Part shown: positions 4,338-50,417 of the stretch, piece after piece
Position numbering within the stretch: position 1 is the first letter of the stretch
Layout of the letters: every line of letters begins with the position of its first letter
Assembly: GCA_012033255.1 (NCBI GenBank)
Contig: JAAUSF010000007.1
Span: 1 to 64,000, forward strand
Origin: Cyanobacteria bacterium RU_5_0
Lineage (GTDB): Bacteria; Cyanobacteriota; Cyanobacteriia; Elainellales; Elainellaceae
DNA length: 64,000 nucleotides
Reading direction: 5' to 3'
Translations under genes and position numbers: made by a program
The notes under the pieces: generated by a model
Database searches by the model: none
The model's input: only the letters and a program-made list of their open reading frames with translations
What the model was told of the DNA's origin: nothing

Positions 4338-6356
4338 ATGTCTTCCAACAAGCTACTTCTAAACCTGGCCCTCCGGTATCCATTTCGGATTCTGCTAAAT
4401 ATTCTATTAGGCTTTTCAGGAGCATTGTTCAATGGTGTCAGCACAACTCTAATTGTTCCAGTAGTGATGAGCCTTTTGGGACAACAGGCAATCCTAAAGT
4501 CGGGTCCACCAATTATTCAAAAATTGCTGTCTCCCTTTGATGGGCTGCCAGACCATCACAAACTGTTTGCAATGGCAGGAGTCATTATTTGCGTCATCAC
4601 CTTAAAAAGTCTTGCCGTTTATGCCAGTAACATAGCCTCAAATGCTTTGAGTCGAGCTTTAACCTGCGATCTCCAGGAAGAAGGATTACAGTTATTACTT
4701 GATGTAGATCTCGATTTTTTCACAAGAGCCAAGGCTGGGGATTTAATGAACCGCTTAGGCGGAGAAATGAATCGAGCTACCGTAGCCATTAGTACAGTAA
4801 TTAATCTAATAATCACTGCCATCACTATTCTAGTGTTCGTTGGCTTACTCCTTTCTATCTCCTGGCAATTAACCGTAGTTACAACCGTTTTATTACCTGT
4901 TGCTCCACTAGTTAGCCAACATTTAGTTGCTCAAGCTAAACGATTTGGCAAGTTAATCACCAATATCAACCAAGAATATTCAGGTCGCTTGATCGAAATT
5001 TTTGCTGGAATTCGCCTGGTCAAAGCAACTAGCAACGAACAGAAAGAGTATATTCATCTCAAGGGCTTAATTCGCGATCGCGAACGTATTGAATTTCGTT
5101 CCCGCGTAGCATCTTTAGCAATTCAACCGATCAGCGAAATCATTAGCATCATCGTTCTATTTCTTTTGGTTATACTTGGTCGGCTTCTGTTTGCAAACGA
5201 AATTGAGTCCCTTTCAGCCGTATTACTCACCTACCTCGTTTTACTGTTTCGATTACTGCCATTCGTTTCTCAATTAAATGGATTGCGAGAAAATTTAGCA
5301 CGCTCAGCCGCTTCCGTAGAAATCGTAGAAGATCTGCTGCGCCGAGATAACAAATCGTTCACTGTTACGGGTACGACTCCTTACGTTCATCTACAGCAAA
5401 AAGTTTCTTTTGAAAATCTATCTTTCGCTTACCCTGAAAGTTCCAATTTAGTATTAAAAAATATTAATTTGTCTATTCCTAAAGGGGCAACATTAGCACT
5501 CGTTGGCTCATCAGGTGCAGGTAAAACTACATTGGTCGATTTACTGCCGCGATTTTATGAACCAACAACAGGCTGCATCAAAATTGATGGAATTGATTTA
5601 CGCGATTTCGATCTGAAGTCTCTTCGACGAGCAATGGGAATCGTCAGTCAAGACACATTTTTATTTAACACCTCTATCCGAAATAACATTGCCTATGGTT
5701 GTCCTAATATTACCGAAGCAGAAATCATTGACGCCATTAAACGAGCAAACGCTTATGAGTTTATCGATCGCCTACCAGAAGGATTAAACACCATGATTGG
5801 CGATCGGGGTGTCATGTTATCGGGTGGACAACGCCAGCGAATTGCGATTGCGCGTGCTTTACTACGCGATCCAGAAATCTTGATTTTGGATGAAGCAACT
5901 AGTGCATTAGACACTGTTTCAGAAAGATTAGTGCAGCAGGCATTGGATGAATTGAGCCAAGAACGAACAACCCTAGTGATTGCTCACCGTTTATCAACGG
6001 TGCAAAAAGCCGATCAAATTGCTGTACTCGATCGAGGGCAAGTTGTTGAACTGGGTACACACGGAGAACTCTTGAAAAAGAATGGTCACTACAGTCGCCT
6101 GTACGAAATGCAATTTGCCGAATCCTTTCAAAAGGAAAACATCATTACCAAAGATCAGAAACAATTGCTAACACAAGCCTCTTATGAATTTCGCTCTCAT
6201 CTCAACTCAATGCTAGGTTCTCTCGGTTTATTAACCGATCGAATCAACACAACATCGGAGGAGCAAAATGAATTAGCTGAAGAAGCCTATCGCTCAGCGA
6301 TCGAGTTGTTCAAAACTGTAAAACAGCTTGAGGACACCTATCGAATGATTAGGTAA
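4338..6356 (+). CDS. ABC exporter (fused membrane and ATPase domains) with a degenerate DHp-like C-terminal tail
   Basis: 672 residues from ATG 4338; a TTG at 4299 would add 13. The first ~320 residues hold six membrane segments of an exporter-type transmembrane domain. The ATPase domain follows: Walker A GSSGAGKTT, Q-loop SQDTFLF, signature LSGGQRQRIAIARALL, Walker B ILILDEATSALD and H-loop IAHRLS. This is the MsbA/HepA-like family that exports lipids, peptides or polysaccharide precursors. After the usual end (about residue 590) there are some 80 extra residues. They contain SYEFRSHLNSMLGSLGLL, which looks like the H-box helix of a HisKA domain (normally S-H-E-x-R-T-P-L-N), with the phospho-accepting His replaced by Tyr, then a second helix. 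A glycosyltransferase gene follows 124 bases downstream, suggesting a role in polysaccharide or glycolipid export. Confidence 0.9.
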   Translation: MSSNKLLLNLALRYPFRILLNILLGFSGALFNGVSTTLIVPVVMSLLGQQAILKSGPPIIQKLLSPFDGLPDHHKLFAMAGVIICVITLKSLAVYASNIASNALSRALTCDLQEEGLQLLLDVDLDFFTRAKAGDLMNRLGGEMNRATVAISTVINLIITAITILVFVGLLLSISWQLTVVTTVLLPVAPLVSQHLVAQAKRFGKLITNINQEYSGRLIEIFAGIRLVKATSNEQKEYIHLKGLIRDRERIEFRSRVASLAIQPISEIISIIVLFLLVILGRLLFANEIESLSAVLLTYLVLLFRLLPFVSQLNGLRENLARSAASVEIVEDLLRRDNKSFTVTGTTPYVHLQQKVSFENLSFAYPESSNLVLKNINLSIPKGATLALVGSSGAGKTTLVDLLPRFYEPTTGCIKIDGIDLRDFDLKSLRRAMGIVSQDTFLFNTSIRNNIAYGCPNITEAEIIDAIKRANAYEFIDRLPEGLNTMIGDRGVMLSGGQRQRIAIARALLRDPEILILDEATSALDTVSERLVQQALDELSQERTTLVIAHRLSTVQKADQIAVLDRGQVVELGTHGELLKKNGHYSRLYEMQFAESFQKENIITKDQKQLLTQASYEFRSHLNSMLGSLGLLTDRINTTSEEQNELAEEAYRSAIELFKTVKQLEDTYRMIR

Positions 6357-6480
6357 TCTAAACTATTTTGTGGGGTATATGAGTGGATGAGTAGATGAGT
6401 AAATAGGTGGATTTGAGACTTGGTAGATAGAACCAGTTTTGGGGCACTTTATAACTAGCATTACAGAAGGCATAGAACGT

Positions 6481-7617
6481 ATGAAAACTTCAGAAAAGCA
6501 GAAAATTGCAGTATATTATCCTGCCTTTTTAGGAGGAGGTGCTGAAGCAGTTGGATTGTGGATGATGGAAGCATTAAAACAAAAATATGATTTAACTCTA
6601 TTTACGATTTCAGCCGTTGATTTCGAGAAACTGAATTTAATGTATGGAACATCGTTATCTAGCAATGTAGTTCAAGTCAAGTCATTTTTTTCACAGTATT
6701 TTAGTCCTTTGGCTAATAGCTTGGTGGCAAATAGTAAACCAATTAGAATGTTCTTTTTTCATCTCCTGCTCCGCTATCTTAAATCAAAAAGTCATCACTA
6801 TGATCTCCTAATCTCTGCTTATAACGCAGTTGATTTTGGCAAACAGGGAATGCAGTATATTCACTGGATCAAAGTTCTTGAAGGAAATCCTTTTTACGAA
6901 AGGATTTCTGATTTTTCAGTAGAGCGGCTGAAAGATAACATTTCAATCACAAATTCTTACACCGTTGCAGAGTATGTCAGCAAAGCCTATGGGAGTGATT
7001 CCACTCTTCTTTATCCGCCAGTTGTGCTAGATGTTAAAGAAATTCCTTGGAATGACAAGGAAGATGCTTTCATTTGCAGTGGCAGATTAACAGAAGCCAA
7101 ACAGCCTCACAAAGTGATTCAAATCTTGAAGCAAGTGCGTGAAAGAGGGTTTGATATTAAGCTATATATGACAGGTGGTGGCGGTGGTGCTTATGCCTGG
7201 AAGTATCAGAACTTTCTCAAAAAATTAGCGCGAGAAAATGCTGCATGGGTTCGGCTATATGAGAATTTGACGTATGAAGACTATGTGAAAGTAGTTTTGA
7301 AGTGTAAGTATGGAATTCACTTTAAGCAAGAACCCTTTGGTATTTCAATTGCAGAAATGGTGAAAGCAGGAGTCATTCCATTTGTGAGAAGCCAAGGTGG
7401 ACAAGTTGAAATTGTTGGAGTTCATAATCAAGATTTATTTTTTGATAATGAAAAGGATGCGATCGAAAAGATTGTCAATGTTTTGAGTCATTCTGACAGA
7501 CAAGCAAAACTGATGAACTCACTCGCAGAACAAAGACACTTGTTTTCGACTCAGCGATTCATGACAGAAATGAATAAGATTGTTGAAAACTACTTTGCAA
7601 AGTCTGTTGAGTTGTAG
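6481..7617 (+). CDS. Glycosyltransferase, GT4-like (GT-B fold)
   Basis: 378 residues from ATG 6481; a TTG at 6439 in frame is less likely. The N-terminus IAVYYPAFLGGGAEAVG is the nucleotide-fold start with the Gly-rich loop typical of retaining GT4 enzymes. Around residues 282-297 KQEPFGISIAEMVKAG matches the family's E-x7-E donor-binding element (E..FGI.. AEM..AG). Strand-loop elements GGRLTEAK-like (CSGRLTEAKQ) and TGGG are in the expected order. Acceptor and donor are unknown. It is A+T-richer than the genes on either side and sits next to an ABC exporter, as in surface-polysaccharide loci. Confidence 0.85.
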   Translation: MKTSEKQKIAVYYPAFLGGGAEAVGLWMMEALKQKYDLTLFTISAVDFEKLNLMYGTSLSSNVVQVKSFFSQYFSPLANSLVANSKPIRMFFFHLLLRYLKSKSHHYDLLISAYNAVDFGKQGMQYIHWIKVLEGNPFYERISDFSVERLKDNISITNSYTVAEYVSKAYGSDSTLLYPPVVLDVKEIPWNDKEDAFICSGRLTEAKQPHKVIQILKQVRERGFDIKLYMTGGGGGAYAWKYQNFLKKLARENAAWVRLYENLTYEDYVKVVLKCKYGIHFKQEPFGISIAEMVKAGVIPFVRSQGGQVEIVGVHNQDLFFDNEKDAIEKIVNVLSHSDRQAKLMNSLAEQRHLFSTQRFMTEMNKIVENYFAKSVEL

Positions 7618-7741: not shown

Positions 7742-10700
7742 TTACTGAGCCGGAGTCAACACCTTTTCTTCAACCGCATTGGGATTCGCTTCTGGGCTAT
7801 CTGCCTCCGATGGCGGGACGACTTGCCAGAACTTGGGCAGATAATCAGACCAGCGATCGAGAATCTGCTTGGCTTTCGGGCTGTGAGTACGATCGAAGTG
7901 TGCCTCAATCAACTCTTTCAATTGCTGTTCACCTGTTGGGGCAACAACACGCTGGACGTTGACGATTTCAGGGTTGACTTTGGTGGGGAAGCTGCCGTCT
8001 TCGTCGAGGAAGTAGGCTAAACCGCCGGTCATGCCTGCACCGACGTTGCGACCCGATCGACCCAGAATGACGACAATCCCACCGGTCATATACTCGCAGC
8101 AGTGATCGCCCGTCCCCTCAATGACGGCTTCGGCTTTGGAGTTGCGAACGGCGAACCGCTCTCCAGCTTGACCATTGGCAAAGAGGATACCGCCTGTGGC
8201 TCCATAGAGGCAGGTGTTGCCGACGATCACATTTTCTGAGGGGTCGTAGTTTGCACTAGAGAGGGGCTTGATAATAATCTCACCGCCATGCATTCCTTTG
8301 CCGACATAATCATTGGCTTCCCCTTCCAGATTCAGGATCATGCCGGGAAGGTTAAATGCGCCGAAGCTTTGCCCAACTGCACCGTAAAAGTTGAGGGTGA
8401 CTTGTCCACTGAAGCCCGTGTCGCCATATTGTTTGGCGATCGCTCCCGATACTCTTGCCCCAACTGAGCGATCGGTGTTAACCACACTATAAGTTTTGCG
8501 AACCATACCCTGATCTCGAATAGTCGCTTGAATCTCTGCGTCCGCTAAGATTTCATCATCCAAGACATAGCCGTTGCTGTGAACGTCTTCATGTTCCAAC
8601 CAGCTCCGATCTTCGCGGGTGTCAGGCAAGTTAATCAAGCAATCCAGGTTCAGCGATCGGGTTTTGGGAATTTGGATGCCTTCTTGGACTTTCAGCAAGT
8701 CAGAGCGACCGATGATATCTTTGAGCGATCGATAGCCGAGACGTGCTAAGAGCGATCGAACTTCCTCCGCCACAAAGTAGAAAAAGTTGACGACGTGTTC
8801 TGGCGTTCCAGTGAAGCGTCGGCGCAGGCGTTCTTGCTGAGTTGTGACACCCACCGGACAGTTATTCGTGTGACAGATCCGCGCCATGATGCAACCTTCC
8901 GCAATCATCGAAACAGAACCAAACCCATACTCTTCGGCTCCCATCAGGGCTGCCATGATCACATCCCATCCGGTCTTCATGCCGCCATCAGCACGCAGGA
9001 GAACTCGATCGCGCAATTTGTTCTGCATCAACACCCGATGCACTTCCGTTACGCCCAATTCCCAAGGAACCCCCGCATGTTTGATCGAACTGAGCGGCGA
9101 TGCCCCTGTTCCGCCATCGTGACCGGAGATTTGGATGATGTCTGCATTCGCTTTCGCGACACCAGCAGCGATCGTGCCAATTCCCACTTCTGCGACCAGC
9201 TTCACAGATACTTTTGCCGTTGGGTTGATCTGGTGTAAATCAAAAATCAACTGAGACAGGTCTTCGATCGAGTAGATGTCATGGTGCGGTGGCGGTGAGA
9301 TCAGCGTGACACCAGGCTTTGAGCGACGCAGCATCGCGATGTAAGGGCTGACTTTTTTGCCAGGAAGTTGTCCGCCTTCACCGGGCTTCGCCCCTTGAGC
9401 AATCTTGATCTCAAGCTGCCTGCCGCTCATCAAGTACTCTGGCGTGACGCCAAACCGACCCGATGCGACCTGTTTAATTGCCGAACTTGCTGTATCTCCG
9501 TTGTGGAGTCCTTTTAGGTGCGGGAAGAGAGCCGATCGCCCGCCTTCATCTACGTCATTGAGGATCTTGAAGCGCATCGGATCTTCGCCACCTTCACCGG
9601 AGTTCGATTTGCCGCCGATCCGGTTCATGGCGATCGCCAACGTTTCATGGGCCTCTCGTGATAACGATCCGAGAGACATCGCCCCCGTGCAGAAGCGTTT
9701 GACAATCTCTTCAATAGATTCAACTTCCTCAATCGGGATAGAAGGACGATCGCTCTTGAAGTCGAGCAGGTCACGCAATGCTGTGAGCTTCCGCTCCTGC
9801 ATATACTTTTTGTAGAGTTCGTAGTGGTCGTAGCTCTTATCGGCAACCGCTTTATGAAGATATTTCGCCATTTCGGGGCTGTTCATGTGATATTCGCCCC
9901 CTGGCTTGTAATTGAAGAAGCCAACGTTTTCCAGCTTCTTGCCTGCCAGTTCAGGGAAAGCGCGGCTATGGAATGCCATCACTTCATGTGCCAAATCGTT
10001 CACACTGATGCCGCCCACGCGAGATGCCGTTCCTGTAAAACCCAAATTCAGCAAATCGGCTCCAATGCCGATCGCCTCAAAAATTTGTGCCGCCTGATAG
10101 CTAGACAGCAGCGAAATGCCCATTTTGGACAAAATCTTCAATAAGCCGGATTCGATCGCCTTCCGCAAGTTATGCTGCGCTCCAGACAGGCTGATCGGGT
10201 TGATTTTGCTAGATTCCATCAATTTTTGAGTCTTGGAGTCAGACCACCACTGGCGGACGGTTTCCCATGCCAGGTAAGGACAAACGGCACTGGCTCCATA
10301 CCCGATCAGACAAGCAAAATGATGCGTATTCCAGCATTGTGCCGTATCAATGACGATCGACGCTTTCATCCGTAAGCCTTGACGAATCAAGTGATGATGG
10401 ACGGCTCCAACCGCCAGCATCGGCGGAATGTAACTGTAATCCTGGCTGAGCGGCGTGGGTTCTCCGGTTCGGCTGAGGCGATCACTCAGAATTAGAATTT
10501 TCTTACCTTCTCGCACGGCGGCTGTTGCCTGTTGACACAGCGTATTTACTGCATACTGCAAGCCGTCAGGTCCATCTGCGATTTTGAATAGCGTAGACAA
10601 GCTAGCCGTCTCGAAGCCGGATTGCCGAATGTGATCTAGCTCGACATCATTCAGCACAGGAGATTCTAGCTTTAATAGATGAGCATAGTCTGGCTTCACA

Positions 10701-12490
10701 TCCAGCAGGTTGCCCCGTTCGCCGAGTTGGGTGGAAAGAGACATGACCAGGCTTTCCCTCAGGGGATCGATCGGCGGATTCGTGACTTGGGCGAAACGCT
10801 GCTTGAAATAGTCATACAGCAACCGTGGCTTGTCCGACAGGACGGCGAGTGGAACATCATCGCCCATGCAGAAGGTGGGTTCCTTCCCTTGAGATGCCAT
10901 CTCCTCAATGATCATTTCCACGTCTTCCAAGGTGTAGCCGAACGCCGTCTGATACTTGAGCAATGACACGGTATCCATCTGGGGCGTATCCAGGAAGGGT
11001 TGAGGCTGAAGCATTTTGCGGTGTTCCTGGAGCCACTGACGATAGGGATGCAGGCTGGCGATGCGCTGCTTAATTTGCCAGTTCTTCTGGATCTCGTGCT
11101 TCTCCAAGTCAACGGCGATCGCCTGCCCCGGACCCAACCGCCCCTTTTCAATAATGTCTTCCTCCGGAATCTCAACGACTCCTGCCTCCGAACCGACCAC
11201 CACCAAACCATCGCGGGTGAGACAGTATCGAGCCGGACGTAGACCATTGCGATCGAGCGTTGCCCCGACTTTCTTGCCATCGCTGAATGCCAGCAGAGCC
11301 GGTCCATCCCACGGCTCCTGTATCCCGCTGTAGTATTCATAGAAGTCTACGATTTCGGGATAGTTCGCCAAATCAGGTTGATTCTGATAGGCTTCCGGTA
11401 CCATAATCATCATGGTTTCCAATGGACGACGACCCGAACGCACCAGCAATTCCATCAGACTGTCGAGATTGGCAGAATCACTTTTTTCGGGATCGACAAT
11501 GGGCTTCAAATCAGAGAGCCGATCGCCCCAACAAGAATGCTCTAGATCGGCTTCCCGTGCCATCATCCAGTTGATGTTGCCCAACAGCGTGTTGATTTCG
11601 CCGTTATGTCCCAAAATCCGCATCGGTTGGGCGAGGGGCCATTTGGGCATGGTATTGGTGCTGAAACGACGGTGATACACCGCAAAAGCACTTTGGTAGC
11701 TCGGATTGGCTAAGTCTTCGTAGAACAGCCCCAAAACTTCCGATCGCACCATGCCTTTGTAGACGATCGTGCGGCTAGAGAACGAGCAAATATAGAATTC
11801 CTGAAGCTCCGGATTCTGTTGTGCTGAAGCGATCATCGCTTTCTCAATTCGCTTCCGAGCCAGATAAAGTCGCTGCTCTAAGGCATCGCCTTCTAGATCA
11901 GCCGATCGCACCACAATTTGTTCAATCTGAGGCTGGTTTTCCCGTGCCTGCGTTCCCAACACCTCTGGCTTTACAGGAACAACTCGCCAACCCAAGCCAG
12001 TGAGTTCTTCTTCTGCCAGGACTTGCGCCACAATGTCACGGGCGATCGTTGCTGCCGACTCAGCTTGAGGCAGAAACACCATCCCGACTCCCAGTTGGGC
12101 TGTGCCCATTTGCATTGTGGATATCGCCCCAACACCTTGAGCCGTTAGCCACTCGCCCAACAACTCCCACGGTACAGCCGTCATCAGTCCGGCTCCGTCG
12201 CCAGAATCTTGATCCGCACTGCATCCTCCACGATGCTCCATACAGGTTGCCGCGACCAACGCTTTAGCAATGATGGCATGGCTTGCCCGTCCATACTGAT
12301 CGGCAATGAAGCCAACCCCACAGGCATCCCGCTCTTCCACGAGCCACGGTTGACCTGCATATCCAACGATCGATCCCTGATTGTGTCGCATATTTTGATT
12401 CACGCCTTTACTACCCCCATGCGGTAATTCAATTCGCTTTTTGAATGGCTGAAGCCAAACCGTCCTAAAAAAGTTGAGCAACGGATTCAT
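7742..12490 (-). CDS. gltS: Ferredoxin-dependent glutamate synthase (Fd-GOGAT)
   Basis: 1582 residues. The enzyme makes two glutamates from glutamine and 2-oxoglutarate, closing the GS-GOGAT cycle of ammonium assimilation. The N-terminal class II amidotransferase starts at Cys57 (ERDA-CGVGF) after a propeptide; M34 is an alternative start. The central and FMN-binding synthase domains follow, with [13 protein letters not shown] and ADGGMKTG, and the 3Fe-4S cysteines in [15 protein letters not shown] (spacing C-x5-C-x4-C). The C-terminal GXGXG-type beta-helix domain is complete. A loop after [17 protein letters not shown] is the insertion that separates ferredoxin-dependent enzymes from the NAD(P)H large subunit, and no gltD is adjacent. 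Synechocystis names this gene gltS; others use glsF. Confidence 0.96.
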
Positions 12491-44834: not shown

Positions 44835-45674
44835 TTAACTTCCTCCGCTAGCGGTTGCCCAGTTCACGATCGCACGAGTCAGCCCTTCCAAAGTATAATC
44901 CTCTGCTTCGACATCAACACGCCCTAGTAATTCCGCGCAAGTTGCAGAGGTTTGAGGACCGATCGAGGCGATGCAAACGGGGTTTGGGAAGGATGAAGGA
45001 TGAAGGATGAAGGATGAAAGAAGGTGGTGGAAGCACTTGACGGTTTTGGAACTGGCGAAGGTGAGGATATCGATTTTGTTTTGCTGAAGAGCATCTAGGA
45101 CATGGGGAGCGATCGTGCTGGCGCAATCAGATTGGTAGGCAGCAACCTCTGTGACTTCTGCGCCTTTAGCGGTCAGTTCTTTTACCAGTACATCGCGTCC
45201 ACCTGTTTCGACTCTGGGAAAAAGAATTTTCATGGTTTGTAAGCGATCGCCATCTGGGAAATGTTCGACTAGCGAATCAGCGACAAAATTGGGTGGGATG
45301 AAATCGGGTTGAATTCCGCGTTGCTGAAGGCTAGCCGCCGTTTTTTTGCCGACAACCGCAATCTTAACTCTGGTGAGTGCATCAATATCTTTGCCTTGGG
45401 CGGTGAGTCGATCGAAGAAGGAATCAACGCCATTCGTGGAAGTCAAGATCAGCCAGTCAAACCTGTGGAGATGGGCGATCGCCTGATCCAACTCTTCCCA
45501 ACTGGAAGGTGGCACAATCTCCAACGTCGGCATTTCAATCACGGTTGCCCCTTCCTGCTGAAGCAGTGTCGTGAACTGACTGGATTGTCCAGCCGCACGG
45601 GTGACGAGAACGGTTTTACCTGTAAGGGGAGGAGAGGGCATGGGAAGTGTAGAGTGGGGAATAGACACGATCAA
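44835..45674 (-). CDS. hemD: Uroporphyrinogen-III synthase
   Basis: 279 residues (an inner ATG at 45641 gives MPSPPLTGKTVLVTR). It closes hydroxymethylbilane to uroporphyrinogen III for heme, chlorophyll and siroheme. VLVTRAAGQSSQFTTLLQ, DWLILTSTNGVDSFF, VAVVGKKTA-like (IAVVGKKTAASL), DILTFASSKTVKCF and IASIGPQTSATC are conserved. Between KTVKCF and the IGP block sits HHLLSSFILHPSSFPNP, encoded by four exact GGATGAA heptamers (44991-45018 on the + strand). This lengthens a loop without breaking the frame. cobA lies 36 bases upstream. Confidence 0.92.
   Translation of the reverse strand: MIVSIPHSTLPMPSPPLTGKTVLVTRAAGQSSQFTTLLQQEGATVIEMPTLEIVPPSSWEELDQAIAHLHRFDWLILTSTNGVDSFFDRLTAQGKDIDALTRVKIAVVGKKTAASLQQRGIQPDFIPPNFVADSLVEHFPDGDRLQTMKILFPRVETGGRDVLVKELTAKGAEVTEVAAYQSDCASTIAPHVLDALQQNKIDILTFASSKTVKCFHHLLSSFILHPSSFPNPVCIASIGPQTSATCAELLGRVDVEAEDYTLEGLTRAIVNWATASGGS
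44991..45018. repeat. Four perfect GGATGAA heptamers inside hemD
   Basis: GGATGAA repeated four times without interruption, within the hemD coding sequence (antisense reading gives SFILHPSSF). The same heptamer occurs in intergenic blocks of this window. Confidence 0.9.
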
Positions 45675-45710
45675 TTGTCCAGCATTGTCCAGTCAATCCG
45701 CACGCTACGC

Positions 45711-46442
45711 CTAATCTCGACTCTGAAGATATGGACGCAGCCTTACTACCTCTCCGATCGCAATTACCGCAGGCGAAAGGGCTTGACGACTGGTCTGCTG
45801 AACGATCGTCTCTAGGGTGCCTATCCAGATTTGCTGCTGCGGCTGTCCTGCCCAACGGATAATGGCGATCGGCGTTTGAGGCGATTTTCCGTGGCGCTGT
45901 AACTGTGCCACAATTTCGGGCAAGTGTTTGGCTCCCATCAAGATCACGAGTGTTTCAATGCCTGCCAGGTTTTCCCAGTCGATCGCCTCTGGTTCATGGG
46001 CACTCAATACGGCAAAGCAACGGCTCAGCACTGGATCAGTCAGAGGAATGCCTGCCAACAGAGGAGCCGCTAACGCCGAAGAGATCCCAGGAATCACTTC
46101 AAAGGCACAGTTTGCCGTAATGAGGGCTTCAATCTCGGAGGTCGATCGACCAAAAATGAATGGATCGCCACTTTTGAGCCGAACAACGTGTTTTCCTTGC
46201 TGACAATGCTCCACCAATAGTTGATTAATGGCTTGCTGAGCCGTACTCGGTTGCCCTCCCCGCTTCCCAACATCCAACTTGAGGCAATGCTCAGGCACAA
46301 GTTGCAACAGGTCTGCATCCACCAGCGCATCATAGACGAGAACATCTGCCTGGATTAGCAACTGCTGCCCTCGTACAGTGAGATAGTCGATGCTACCGGG
46401 GCCAGAACCCACGAGATAAACCTTGCCGATTTGCTCAACCAT
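45711..46442 (-). CDS. cobA: Uroporphyrinogen-III C-methyltransferase
   Basis: 243 residues, a stand-alone SUMT. It adds two methyl groups from SAM to make precorrin-2 for siroheme and cobalamin. Family marks: VYLVGSGPGSIDYLTVRG at the start, VLVYDALVDADLL, VRLKSGDPFIFGR and VIPGISSALAAPLLAGIPLT. First gene of a probable cobA-hemD-coaE unit that links tetrapyrrole branch enzymes with CoA synthesis. Confidence 0.95.
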   Translation of the reverse strand: MVEQIGKVYLVGSGPGSIDYLTVRGQQLLIQADVLVYDALVDADLLQLVPEHCLKLDVGKRGGQPSTAQQAINQLLVEHCQQGKHVVRLKSGDPFIFGRSTSEIEALITANCAFEVIPGISSALAAPLLAGIPLTDPVLSRCFAVLSAHEPEAIDWENLAGIETLVILMGAKHLPEIVAQLQRHGKSPQTPIAIIRWAGQPQQQIWIGTLETIVQQTSRQALSPAVIAIGEVVRLRPYLQSRD

Positions 46443-46467
46443 GAACTCCCAGTATCGATATTTCAGT

Positions 46468-47505
46468 TTATTTCAGGAGGCAAGCGATCGGAACAATCAG
46501 ATATTCCAGGAAAAATAATTTCCAGATGACTTGATAGAAACGAGCGATCGAGGTTTTATTGGGCAAATCAACCTTTAAGCTCATGATCCATAATGCGCCT
46601 AATGCCAGCAGATGAGTGATTACGAGAAAAGCTGAATTGATATCTGGAAGCCATAGTCCAGCCAGGATCATCCCCAAGTAACAAACCGTAAGAACCGATC
46701 GCGCCAAATTAAAGACCGCTTTTTGTCCCAGGCGAACGGTGAACGTCGTGATGTGATACAACCGATCGCCCTCTAAATCGGGAATGTCTTTGAAGATGGC
46801 AATGGCAAACGTAAATATCAGAATGAACAGAGCCAATGCCCAAACGGATGATGGGATGGGGAGGTGGAAGGTGGAGGGGAGGTGGAGGGAGGAGGGGAGG
46901 TGGAGTTGTTGATTGAAGTGGAGAAATAGTCCTAGATTAACGATCGCGCCTCGGACACTGAAAATACACAGCGATGCCCATACCGGAAACCGCCGCAAGC
47001 GAATTGGCGGCAGTGAATACGCTGTGCCAATCAGCAGACTCAGCCATACGGTTCCCATCAAGAAATAGCCTTGCATCGCAGAGAGAACGATCGCCAGGAT
47101 TCCAGTAGTAGCGACGATCGCCCATCCTTGTCGTCGCGAAAATTCACCCGACGCCAGAGGCAAGTGAGGTTTGTTGATGCGATCGATCTCAACATCCTCA
47201 ATTTGGTTCAATCCCACGATGTAGATATTGCCGCAGAGACAGGTGAGGAGGGGAAGAATGAAGAATGAAAGATGAAGAATGAAGGATGAGGGATGAGAGG
47301 TGAGAGGTGAGAGGATTTTCCAGCCTCCGTTTTCTGAAAGGGCAATGAGATAAAGCCCCAGGATACTCAGGCTAGTGCCGATGATGGTGTGAGGACGAGA
47401 GAATTTCCAGAAGGCGTGGAGCCACGAGAAGGGGGATTGAGTAAGGTTGCGTTGGGGGGAGTGGGAGGATGGGAGTGGGGGTTTGGGGGGTAAAATTTGG
47501 CTCAT
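46468..47505 (-). CDS. hpt: Homogentisate phytyltransferase (tocopherol synthesis)
   Basis: 345 residues, a UbiA-type prenyltransferase with about nine membrane helices. The first Asp-rich motif is NQIEDVEIDRINKPHLPLASG, as in HPT/VTE2 enzymes that condense homogentisate with phytyl diphosphate; FKDIPDLEGD is the second. SFSRPHTIIG-like KFSRPHTIIGTSLSILGL starts helix 1. Two loops are padded by repeat-like DNA: one at about residues 63-86 encoding SHPSSFILHLSFF, and one at about 197-216 encoding HLPSSLHLPSTFHLP. Relatives are nearer 310 residues. Confidence 0.92.
   Translation of the reverse strand: MSQILPPKPPLPSSHSPQRNLTQSPFSWLHAFWKFSRPHTIIGTSLSILGLYLIALSENGGWKILSPLTSHPSSFILHLSFFILPLLTCLCGNIYIVGLNQIEDVEIDRINKPHLPLASGEFSRRQGWAIVATTGILAIVLSAMQGYFLMGTVWLSLLIGTAYSLPPIRLRRFPVWASLCIFSVRGAIVNLGLFLHFNQQLHLPSSLHLPSTFHLPIPSSVWALALFILIFTFAIAIFKDIPDLEGDRLYHITTFTVRLGQKAVFNLARSVLTVCYLGMILAGLWLPDINSAFLVITHLLALGALWIMSLKVDLPNKTSIARFYQVIWKLFFLEYLIVPIACLLK
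47251..47314. repeat. Heptamer-like GAATGAA/GGATGAG run inside hpt
   Basis: Consecutive AAGAATG, AAGGATG and GGTGAGA units; antisense to hpt they encode the Ser/His/Phe-rich loop. A second purine-rich run (GGAGGTGG units) lies at about 46851-46912 in the same gene. Confidence 0.75.
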
Positions 47506-47815: not shown

Positions 47816-47883
47816 CCCATCCTCATTCCTCATTCCTCATCCCTTATCCCTCATTCCTCATCCCTCATTCCTCATCCTTCCCA
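47816..47883. repeat. TCCTCAT/TCCCTCAT heptamer array
   Basis: About nine 7-base units (ATTCCTC, ATCCCTC and variants) directly upstream of the ribosome site of the next gene. Possibly within its 5' leader. Confidence 0.85.
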
Positions 47884-47894
47884 GAGGTGATCCT

Positions 47895-50417
47895 ATGCAA
47901 AACGCCGATCGCATCCAGTGGTTGCAACAGCAAACCTCACTCGGATCGCTTTCAGAAGAAGTGTTGAGGGCGATCGCGTCTCAGATTCAGGAAGAACTCA
48001 TTCAAGAAAATCGTCGTTTGATTTTAGAAGATACGCTGCCAGATGCGCTCTACATTCTTAAATCGGGTCGATTGGAAGCCTATCACACAAGTCCTGATAG
48101 TGCTGCCAGAGTGATCAGTCTGTTATCGGGTTCGGTGCTGCATCTGAAAGAGTTGTTGCTGGATCAACCGGCGGAACAAACCGTGATCACCCTCAGCGAT
48201 TGTGAGATTTGGGCGATACCCCGTGAGAGGTTTCTAGAACTCGTTGAGCAATATCCAGAAATTAATCGAATTTTCTCGCGTCAACTTGCTGCCGAACTCA
48301 CTCACGTTACGTCTCAACTTGCATTTGAGCAGGAGCGACAAACGGCATTACGTCCGTATTGGGTGCCCAAGGCGAAACAGGGTGTTGTTGGGACGAGTCG
48401 ATATGCTGTGCGGTTGCGGCAAGCGATTAAGAAAGCGTCTGCCGATCGCCTGCCTGTTTTGATTTTTGGTGAACCAGGGCTAGGCAAAGACACGATTGCT
48501 GCATTAATTCACTTCGGATCAGACGATCGCAAACAGCCGTTGATCAAAATCAATTGTGATACGCTTCAAGCGAACGGCGCAGAACTTTTTGGTCGGGCAG
48601 GCGGTAAACCTGGACTACTGGAATGGTTGGGCAACGGAACATTGATGTTGAATAATGTTCAGGATTTACCGAAAGACATCGAAAAAAAATTACTGACGTT
48701 GTTGGCAACCGGAGAGTATACCCCTGTCAATCGGGAAGGCGCACCAGAGTCGCAGAAGCGTCGATCGGACGCACGGATCATTCTGACATCTGAGCGTTCT
48801 CTGCCAACGATTCAAAAACGAGTTGCCCATCCGATCAAAGTGCCACCTTTGCGCGTCACAAAGGCAGATATTCAGGCGCAGGTAAAGTATTACATCAGCC
48901 TTTACTGTCGCTCTCGTGGGCTATCGCAGCCGAAAGTGTCACCCGAAGCGATTCGTCGCCTTCAAAGTTATGACTTTCCGGGTAATTTATCGGAACTCGA
49001 AAGTTTGGTGGAGCGGGCGATCGTCCAATCAAACGGTGCCCCTGTGCTAATGGAAGAAGTCTTTTGGTCTGTTAGTCCCAAAACCAAACGCTTCCGAGTC
49101 AATTTGCTCAATGCCTATCCCAAGCTACGACAGTTTCTCCGGAGTCGTTGGTATCCCGATCGCATCAACTATGGGTTCACCTTAACCGTCTTTGCTCTGG
49201 TTGTGGCAATCTTGTTCCTCGGACCGCAAACCCGCGATGCCAACATGGGGCTGAATCTGTTTTGGGCATGGTGGTGGCCTGTTATGTTGATTGCGTTTCC
49301 CTTCGTCGGGCGGATCTGGTGTGCCTTTTGCCCTTTTATGATCTATGGCGAACTGGTTCAAACCATTTCTCTCAAGTTGGTTCCGCGTCAGTTGCGATCG
49401 TGGCCCCGTCAATCGGCGGAAAAATGGGGCGGTTGGGTGTTGTTCAGCTTATTTGTCCTCATTTTGCTGTGGGAAGAACTCTGGGATTTACCCAATACTG
49501 CTTATCTCTCAAGCTGGCTCTTGCTGCTGATTACTGGAGGAGCCATCGTTTGTTCGGTCATCTTCGAGCGCCGATTTTGGTGTCGTTATTTATGTCCGAT
49601 CGGCGGCATGAATGGCTTATACGCCAAGCTTTCCATGACGGAACTCCGGGCACAACAAGGAATATGCGCCGCCACTTGCACAACCTATCAATGCTACAAG
49701 GGCGGTCCTCAAAAGGGCGAAGGTATGGAAACAGGAGGCTGTCCGCTTTATTCTCATCCAGCACAACTTCAAGATAATCGCGATTGTGTCTTGTGTATGA
49801 CCTGTTTGAAAGCTTGTCCACATCGATCGGTTGAGTTTAATCTCCGTCCACCTGGAATCGAATTATGGACTTCTCACACCCCAAGTCATCATGAAGTTGC
49901 ACTGTTATTCTTGCTATTCGGAGCCATATTTCTGCATCGATTACCAGAAATGGTGATGCACTGGAACTGGACGATCGACCTAGACGACTTCTCTCTCCAT
50001 GCAGGTGTGTCTGCACTGGTATTAGCAATACCTGGAGCGATCGCGCTGTTCAGTTACGGTTTAATTTATCTACTCAATCGCACACTCAAGCCGCGCAAAT
50101 TCATCGAATTAGCCTATGGCTATTTGCCCCTCATTCTCGGTGGAACATTAGCTCACTATTTGCGATTAGGTTTAACAGAAGCAGGACAAATTATCCCTGT
50201 CACTCTAGCTACATTTGGACTTAGCGGCATCGGGACCCCTATTGTAGTAGCTGATCCAGCAGTCATCGCATTTTTGCAAGGAACCACACTCACTGTAGCC
50301 ACCTTTCTTAGCATTATCTTGACCCAGAAAATCGCTCGTCAACCCCTACTTCACCAACTACCCCAACACCTAACCACTCTGGGATTCACGATTCTACTCT
50401 GGCAACTAATCGTCTAA
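47895..50417 (+). CDS. cNMP-binding domain + degenerate sigma-54-activator AAA+ domain + membrane polyferredoxin fusion
   Basis: 840 residues behind an unusually complete ribosome site (AGAGGTGATCC, 3 bases before ATG). Residues ~10-150 form a CAP_ED cyclic-nucleotide-type domain (YILKSGRLEAYH...EIWAIPRERFLEL). Residues ~165-395 match the AAA+ domain of NtrC-type activators: Walker A GEPGLGKDT, ELFG, and the C-terminal FPGNLSELESLVERAIV. The GAFTGA loop that contacts sigma-54 is absent and Walker B reads GTLMLNNVQDL, lacking the acidic pair. There is no DNA-binding domain. Residues ~410-840 are membrane-embedded, with CAFCPF, RYLCPIGG, CAATC...GCPLY and the 4Fe-4S motif CVLCMTCLKACP, resembling NapH/NosR/CcoG proteins. 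Cyanobacteria lack sigma-54, so the protein is probably a redox/ligand-sensing membrane electron carrier rather than a transcription activator. Confidence 0.88.
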   Translation: MQNADRIQWLQQQTSLGSLSEEVLRAIASQIQEELIQENRRLILEDTLPDALYILKSGRLEAYHTSPDSAARVISLLSGSVLHLKELLLDQPAEQTVITLSDCEIWAIPRERFLELVEQYPEINRIFSRQLAAELTHVTSQLAFEQERQTALRPYWVPKAKQGVVGTSRYAVRLRQAIKKASADRLPVLIFGEPGLGKDTIAALIHFGSDDRKQPLIKINCDTLQANGAELFGRAGGKPGLLEWLGNGTLMLNNVQDLPKDIEKKLLTLLATGEYTPVNREGAPESQKRRSDARIILTSERSLPTIQKRVAHPIKVPPLRVTKADIQAQVKYYISLYCRSRGLSQPKVSPEAIRRLQSYDFPGNLSELESLVERAIVQSNGAPVLMEEVFWSVSPKTKRFRVNLLNAYPKLRQFLRSRWYPDRINYGFTLTVFALVVAILFLGPQTRDANMGLNLFWAWWWPVMLIAFPFVGRIWCAFCPFMIYGELVQTISLKLVPRQLRSWPRQSAEKWGGWVLFSLFVLILLWEELWDLPNTAYLSSWLLLLITGGAIVCSVIFERRFWCRYLCPIGGMNGLYAKLSMTELRAQQGICAATCTTYQCYKGGPQKGEGMETGGCPLYSHPAQLQDNRDCVLCMTCLKACPHRSVEFNLRPPGIELWTSHTPSHHEVALLFLLFGAIFLHRLPEMVMHWNWTIDLDDFSLHAGVSALVLAIPGAIALFSYGLIYLLNRTLKPRKFIELAYGYLPLILGGTLAHYLRLGLTEAGQIIPVTLATFGLSGIGTPIVVADPAVIAFLQGTTLTVATFLSIILTQKIARQPLLHQLPQHLTTLGFTILLWQLIV

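Follow-up and report, generated by a model that had tools for sequence, protein, structure and literature searches.

What a cyanobacterium does with a protein that carries a cNMP-binding-like domain, a sigma-54-activator AAA+ domain and a membrane iron-sulfur domain is the question raised by a gene in contig JAAUSF010000007.1 of Cyanobacteria bacterium RU_5_0, of which we analyzed 64,000 nucleotides (this whole stretch is called the window). Our reading, to which we assign a probability of roughly 0.75, is that the product is a FesM-type membrane iron-sulfur protein with a head composed of a decayed AAA+ domain and a cNMP-like domain.

One intact gene with full-length relatives

The gene forms one open frame from an ATG at position 47895 to a stop codon ending at 50417 on the forward strand, with zero internal stops or N (Table 1). 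Pfam searches of the 840-aa chain found, in this order, cNMP_binding (PF00027, 2.3e-14, residues 37-120), Sigma54_activat (PF00158, 6.6e-20, residues 165-305), AAA_lid_14 (PF25601, 1.3e-11, residues 323-389) and Fer4_5 motifs (1.9e-7, two stretches). These matches and the intact frame agree with the preliminary description, made from the letters alone, of a cNMP domain, a degenerate AAA+ domain and a 4Fe-4S membrane domain in a single chain; no HTH or Fis domain was found in the chain by Pfam, and that description had likewise stated the lack of an HTH.

Relatives with 58-74% identity were found at 25 genome-contig loci, nearly all at full length and a few cut by contig ends; across cyanobacteria, the identity of full-length relatives ranges over 55-74%. 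Overall, 90 of 291 Cyanobacteriota genomes gave matches, and about 73 of these, in the same class, look like true family members. An assembly fusion or a sequencing error joining two genes, which had been named as a case against the preliminary reading, was excluded by the full-length relatives in many independent assemblies, and we take the cNMP/AAA+/iron-sulfur fusion to be real and old. The distribution of the gene among cyanobacteria is patchy, so cyclic electron flow cannot include it in all of them. The relatives form a main, a sister and a marine clade, whose branching order was not settled by our tree, in which the outgroup branches are saturated. At three loci (L072, L079 and L188) the gene is split over two ORFs, by frameshift, decay or sequencing error.

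The window-type gene has no conserved neighbours, and no neighbour family was common to more than six main-clade loci. Upstream on the minus strand (44835-47505) lie genes resembling, by eye, hemD, cobA and a prenyltransferase gene, the last of which is shared with only two other loci (L015 and L020). Short CCTCATTCCTCAT-type direct repeats occupy positions 47818-47877, just upstream of the gene. The very strong ribosome site noted earlier is real, but the substantial expression deduced from it does not follow: because only 2 of 92 relatives have a Shine-Dalgarno match of at least 6 nt, the match is no family trait and says little on expression.

Table 1. Position of the gene, its domains and its altered or invariant motifs in the window
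Feature	Coordinates	Strand	Basis
Shine-Dalgarno match GAGGTGATC, 2 nt before ATG	47884..47892	+	read from sequence
fesM-type gene, 840 aa	47895..50417	+	ORF reading; full-length relatives
cNMP-binding-like (CAP_ED) domain, residues 37-120, signature Arg absent	48003..48254	+	PF00027; column counts
Long helix 122-155, joins cNMP domain to AAA+	48258..48359	+	AF2 model; tblastn
Degenerate sigma-54-activator AAA+, residues 165-310	48387..48824	+	PF00158; Foldseek
Altered Walker A GEPGLGKD, residues 192-199	48468..48491	+	alignment
Site of deleted GAFTGA loop, residues 230-244	48582..48626	+	alignment; missing in 96/96 aligned rows
Walker B remnant GTLMLNNVQDL, residues 248-258	48636..48668	+	alignment
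Site of deleted arginine-finger segment, about residues 301-312	48795..48830	+	alignment with L082
AAA lid, residues 323-389	48861..49061	+	PF25601
First four transmembrane helices, residues 419-556	49149..49562	+	AF2 models; hydropathy
Cys motif 1, C476-x2-C479-P, end of TM2	49320..49334	+	invariant
Cys motif 2, C563-x3-C567-P, after TM4	49581..49598	+	invariant
Iron-sulfur loop C591-x3-C595-x4-C600-x15-C616-P and C631-x2-C634-x2-C637-x3-C641-P	49665..49820	+	invariant; kept in standalone Deinococcus relative
C-terminal membrane helices, residues 665-839, invariant E667 and E762	49887..50411	+	alignment; AF2 models

The AAA+ head has lost its catalytic and sigma-54-contact motifs

The AAA+ and lid fold of the window protein is that of the NtrC/PspF-class sigma-54 activators (bEBPs). 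AF2 modelled the head with good confidence, and Foldseek matched it to domains of NtrX, NtrC1, FlrC and PspF, with a target TM-score of up to 0.81 for the last three. Unlike bEBPs, however, the window protein has no GAFTGA loop (ELFGRAGGKPGLLEW), Walker B acids, arginine-finger segment or HTH, and RpoN was not found in its genome. The alignment thereby upholds the earlier observation that the GAFTGA loop and both acidic Walker B residues are gone. Homologues with an intact GAFTGA and Walker B, the other case named against the preliminary reading, were sought as surviving ancestral forms and none was found, a GAFTGA-like motif being present in 0 of 96 aligned rows and 0 of 48 sister-clade rows.

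The decay, as read from the alignment, goes further than the preliminary description saw: the arginine-finger stretch (FRxDLxxRL) is deleted in comparison with two canonical activator domains of L082, Walker A is altered, and the phosphate-binding arginine of the cNMP domain is missing. Nearly all main-clade rows have N-N in the Walker B position, and their Walker A keeps its lysine, with E before it in 56/74 rows and D after it in 74/74. The marine clade partly keeps the Walker B D, with the catalytic E replaced. The sister clade has a normal Walker A (GxxGxGKT), and none of its listed Walker B variants has both acids. ATP hydrolysis by the window protein is predicted to be very probably absent; the sister clade might still bind ATP, because its Walker A is normal. 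The L082 protein (5249-7210), whose genome belongs to a different class within the phylum, has two tandem sigma-54-activator domains.

The preliminary description held that cyanobacteria have no sigma-54 and that the classical role is therefore impossible. Our searches concur: with working controls, the RpoN DNA-binding domain was not found in the window genome, and among 244 Cyanobacteriota genomes there was no full RpoN match and two partial matches above the cut-off. The phylum-wide result carries the weight here because the window assembly is only 89% complete. One cyanobacterial genome (G122) has a 202-aa ORF (L119, 1459-2067) that matches the sigma-54 DNA-binding domain with 62 bits and has no other Pfam domain.

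The cNMP-like domain lacks its signature arginine and is missing in several lineages

The Pfam cNMP match is above the cut-off, which is what would be expected of a cyclic-nucleotide-gated electron valve, in which cAMP or cGMP bound to CAP_ED would turn the passage of electrons through the core on or off. We consider such a valve improbable, since the phosphate-binding cassette lacks its arginine (column 93 has Arg in none of 76 rows), most main-clade rows have another residue in place of a nearby Glu, and the whole domain is missing in L081, L090/L098, L099, L076 and the tested marine rows, where tblastn found no cNMP remnant in the flanks. With the signature arginine absent family-wide and the domain missing in several lineages, the gating by a small ligand proposed at the outset is not supported for a cyclic nucleotide. 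The helix that follows the domain is kept in L081, L090 and L098, which lack the domain itself. Several separate losses are likely, because the rows without the domain sit in different parts of the tree.

Twelve invariant cysteines mark the membrane core

The core contains 12 cysteines (476, 479, 563, 567, 591, 595, 600, 616, 631, 634, 637 and 641), which are invariant in intact relatives: 76/76 in the main clade, 8/8 in the sister clade and 9/9 or 9/10 in the marine clade, where the miss is a fragment. A larger set of sister-clade rows kept all 12 in 46 of 48, and the two misses look like fragments. Mean majority identity in the main clade was highest in the core (0.87, against 0.70 for the AAA and 0.55 for the cNMP domain). 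We regard the iron-sulfur membrane core as the working part of the protein and the N-terminal half as a non-catalytic head, because no intact relative lacks any of the 12 cysteines, while several lineages have lost the cNMP domain. From the helix order, with the head in the cytosol, all twelve cysteines are predicted to lie on the cytosolic face. The AF2 models of the iron-sulfur loop are poor (pLDDT under 50), and no solved structure in the PDB resembled the membrane core at E<=0.001.

The core had been called NapH/CcoG-like, which stands as a resemblance only. Its best NCBIfam match, NapH/MauN (TIGR02163), reached 48.5 bits against a cut-off of 213 bits, and no CcoG model matched. Like NapH/MauN, it carries CxxCP/CxxxCP-type motifs in pairs as well as a C-terminal 4Fe-4S motif, but it has more membrane helices and an extra set of conserved cysteines. 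Deinococcus ficus has a standalone 4Fe-4S membrane protein (WP_027463891) that is 31% identical to the core, with all 12 cysteines aligned. Neither this protein nor a haloarchaeal relative (L109), in which part of the cysteine pattern is missing, has the AAA+ or cNMP head of the window protein.

In another reading, the protein would be a membrane-bound regulator of transcription that responds to redox state as NosR does: its core would sense redox and its AAA+/cNMP head would signal to gene expression without sigma-54. The head does descend from a transcription activator, the core of one sister-clade member has a weak similarity to NosR (21.3 bits), and one record names a relative "nitrogen assimilation regulatory protein". 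We nevertheless find such a regulator unlikely: the chain has no HTH or other DNA-binding domain, the sigma-54-contact loop and sigma-54 itself were not found, the cNMP domain and head motifs get lost while the cysteines stay invariant, and a headless core exists in Deinococcus.

Likely orthology with FesM

FesM of Synechococcus sp. PCC 7002 reportedly has cAMP-binding, NtrC-like and iron-sulfur parts and membrane helices, and the window chain has the same make-up, with a cNMP-like domain, an NtrC-like AAA, iron-sulfur motifs and membrane helices. We compared FesM by this description and through a near relative of PCC 7002, the Picosynechococcus genome G055, which matches PCC 7002 plasmid pAQ7 DNA at 95% over 9 kb. 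The window gene is likely to be orthologous to PCC 7002 fesM, because the only gene of this kind in G055 is 59% identical across almost the entire length and encodes the same domains. The two proteins differ in the Walker B remnant, which is NK in Picosynechococcus and NN in the window protein.

According to PMC9003380, FesM takes part in PSI cyclic electron transfer, and its loss prevents mixotrophic growth on glycerol. The paper cited there, Xu, Liu & Zhao 2005 (Plant Physiol 138:1586), speaks in its title of a membrane iron-sulfur protein that is needed for cyclic electron flow.

A FesM-type core would presumably deliver electrons to the quinone pool of photosynthesis; we infer the donor, the acceptor and the cluster number. 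The head cannot act on sigma-54; its most likely job, by our inference, is oligomerisation or docking, through which it would tune the core. The preliminary idea of an old activator ATPase repurposed as a regulatory or scaffold module of an electron-transfer protein in the membrane survives in this form, given the lost catalytic motifs and sigma-54-contact loop, but gating by a cyclic nucleotide is not supported.

A sister clade beside sulfur and electron-transport genes

A sister clade (loci L063-L068, L072, L076, L107, L110, L151 and L153-L191) is 39-43% identical to the window protein, and a plasmid-borne relative used as query gave matches in 45 of 390 genomes. When neighbours were compared between 50 sister-clade loci (mean 15.0 kb; L110 and L164 among them look like the same plasmid) and 46 main-clade loci (mean 14.6 kb), with p-values that overstate the evidence because 20 families were picked after viewing the sister neighbourhoods, without correction and ignoring the kinship of the genomes, cysK was present at 34/50 sister and 2/46 main loci (Fisher 2.3e-11), rhodanese at 16 versus 0 (8.9e-6) and Rieske petC at 11 versus 0 (5.7e-4), and psbA (9 versus 2), SQR-like, cytochrome bd, TauE, HemN, AcsF and other genes were commoner in the sister clade but individually weak (p 0.027 to 0.24). 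The cysK gene usually lies directly downstream in the same direction, and its link is strong enough to stand. At two sister loci, HdrA/B/C-like genes adjoin the gene.

These neighbours speak against a further reading, in which the core, much like CcoG, would serve in iron-sulfur assembly or in handling metals and would cause the electron-flow phenotype only indirectly. Its CxxCP motifs at helix ends do resemble those of membrane ferredoxins generally (Fer4_5), but the core matches no CcoG model and the sister-clade neighbours are electron-transport and sulfur genes rather than genes of cofactor assembly; we judge this role very improbable.

Returning to a FesM-type electron carrier, the gene neighbourhood suggests that the sister clade is a sulfide/low-oxygen electron relay. 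The iron or low-oxygen role of the preliminary description fits this clade by neighbourhood; the window gene, lacking conserved neighbours, shows no such fit. More tentatively, and at somewhat less than even odds, the family would be a membrane electron relay under a pseudo-AAA+ head that split in two: a general form (FesM, including the window gene), and one for sulfide/low-oxygen conditions, which would supply the quinone pool with electrons drawn from sulfide or Hdr-like chemistry, alongside alternative Rieske, D1 and cytochrome bd proteins.

Some sister loci have further genes nearby. At L064 (9513-13627) and L066 the sister gene has as neighbours HdrA/B/C-like genes together with genes for a DUF4405 membrane protein and a rhodanese and one that is NifX-like, and at L065 a nifH-family gene (10436-11329; PF00142, 451 bits) lies about 1.8 kb from the sister-clade gene.

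Proteins of the FesM kind are already known; what looks new is how far the head has decayed and that a sister family occurs in sulfide/low-oxygen gene islands. We found no mention of the gene family, by the terms searched, in three papers on cyanobacteria from sulfidic habitats. The routes other than the NDH complex by which electrons get back to plastoquinone are still a matter of debate, and to our knowledge little work on FesM has appeared after 2005. Taken together, the family-wide loss of catalytic motifs, the dispensable cNMP domain and the protected 12-cysteine core make FesM a testable electron-transfer module, and the sister clade is a specific candidate for sulfide-linked photosynthetic electron flow at low oxygen.
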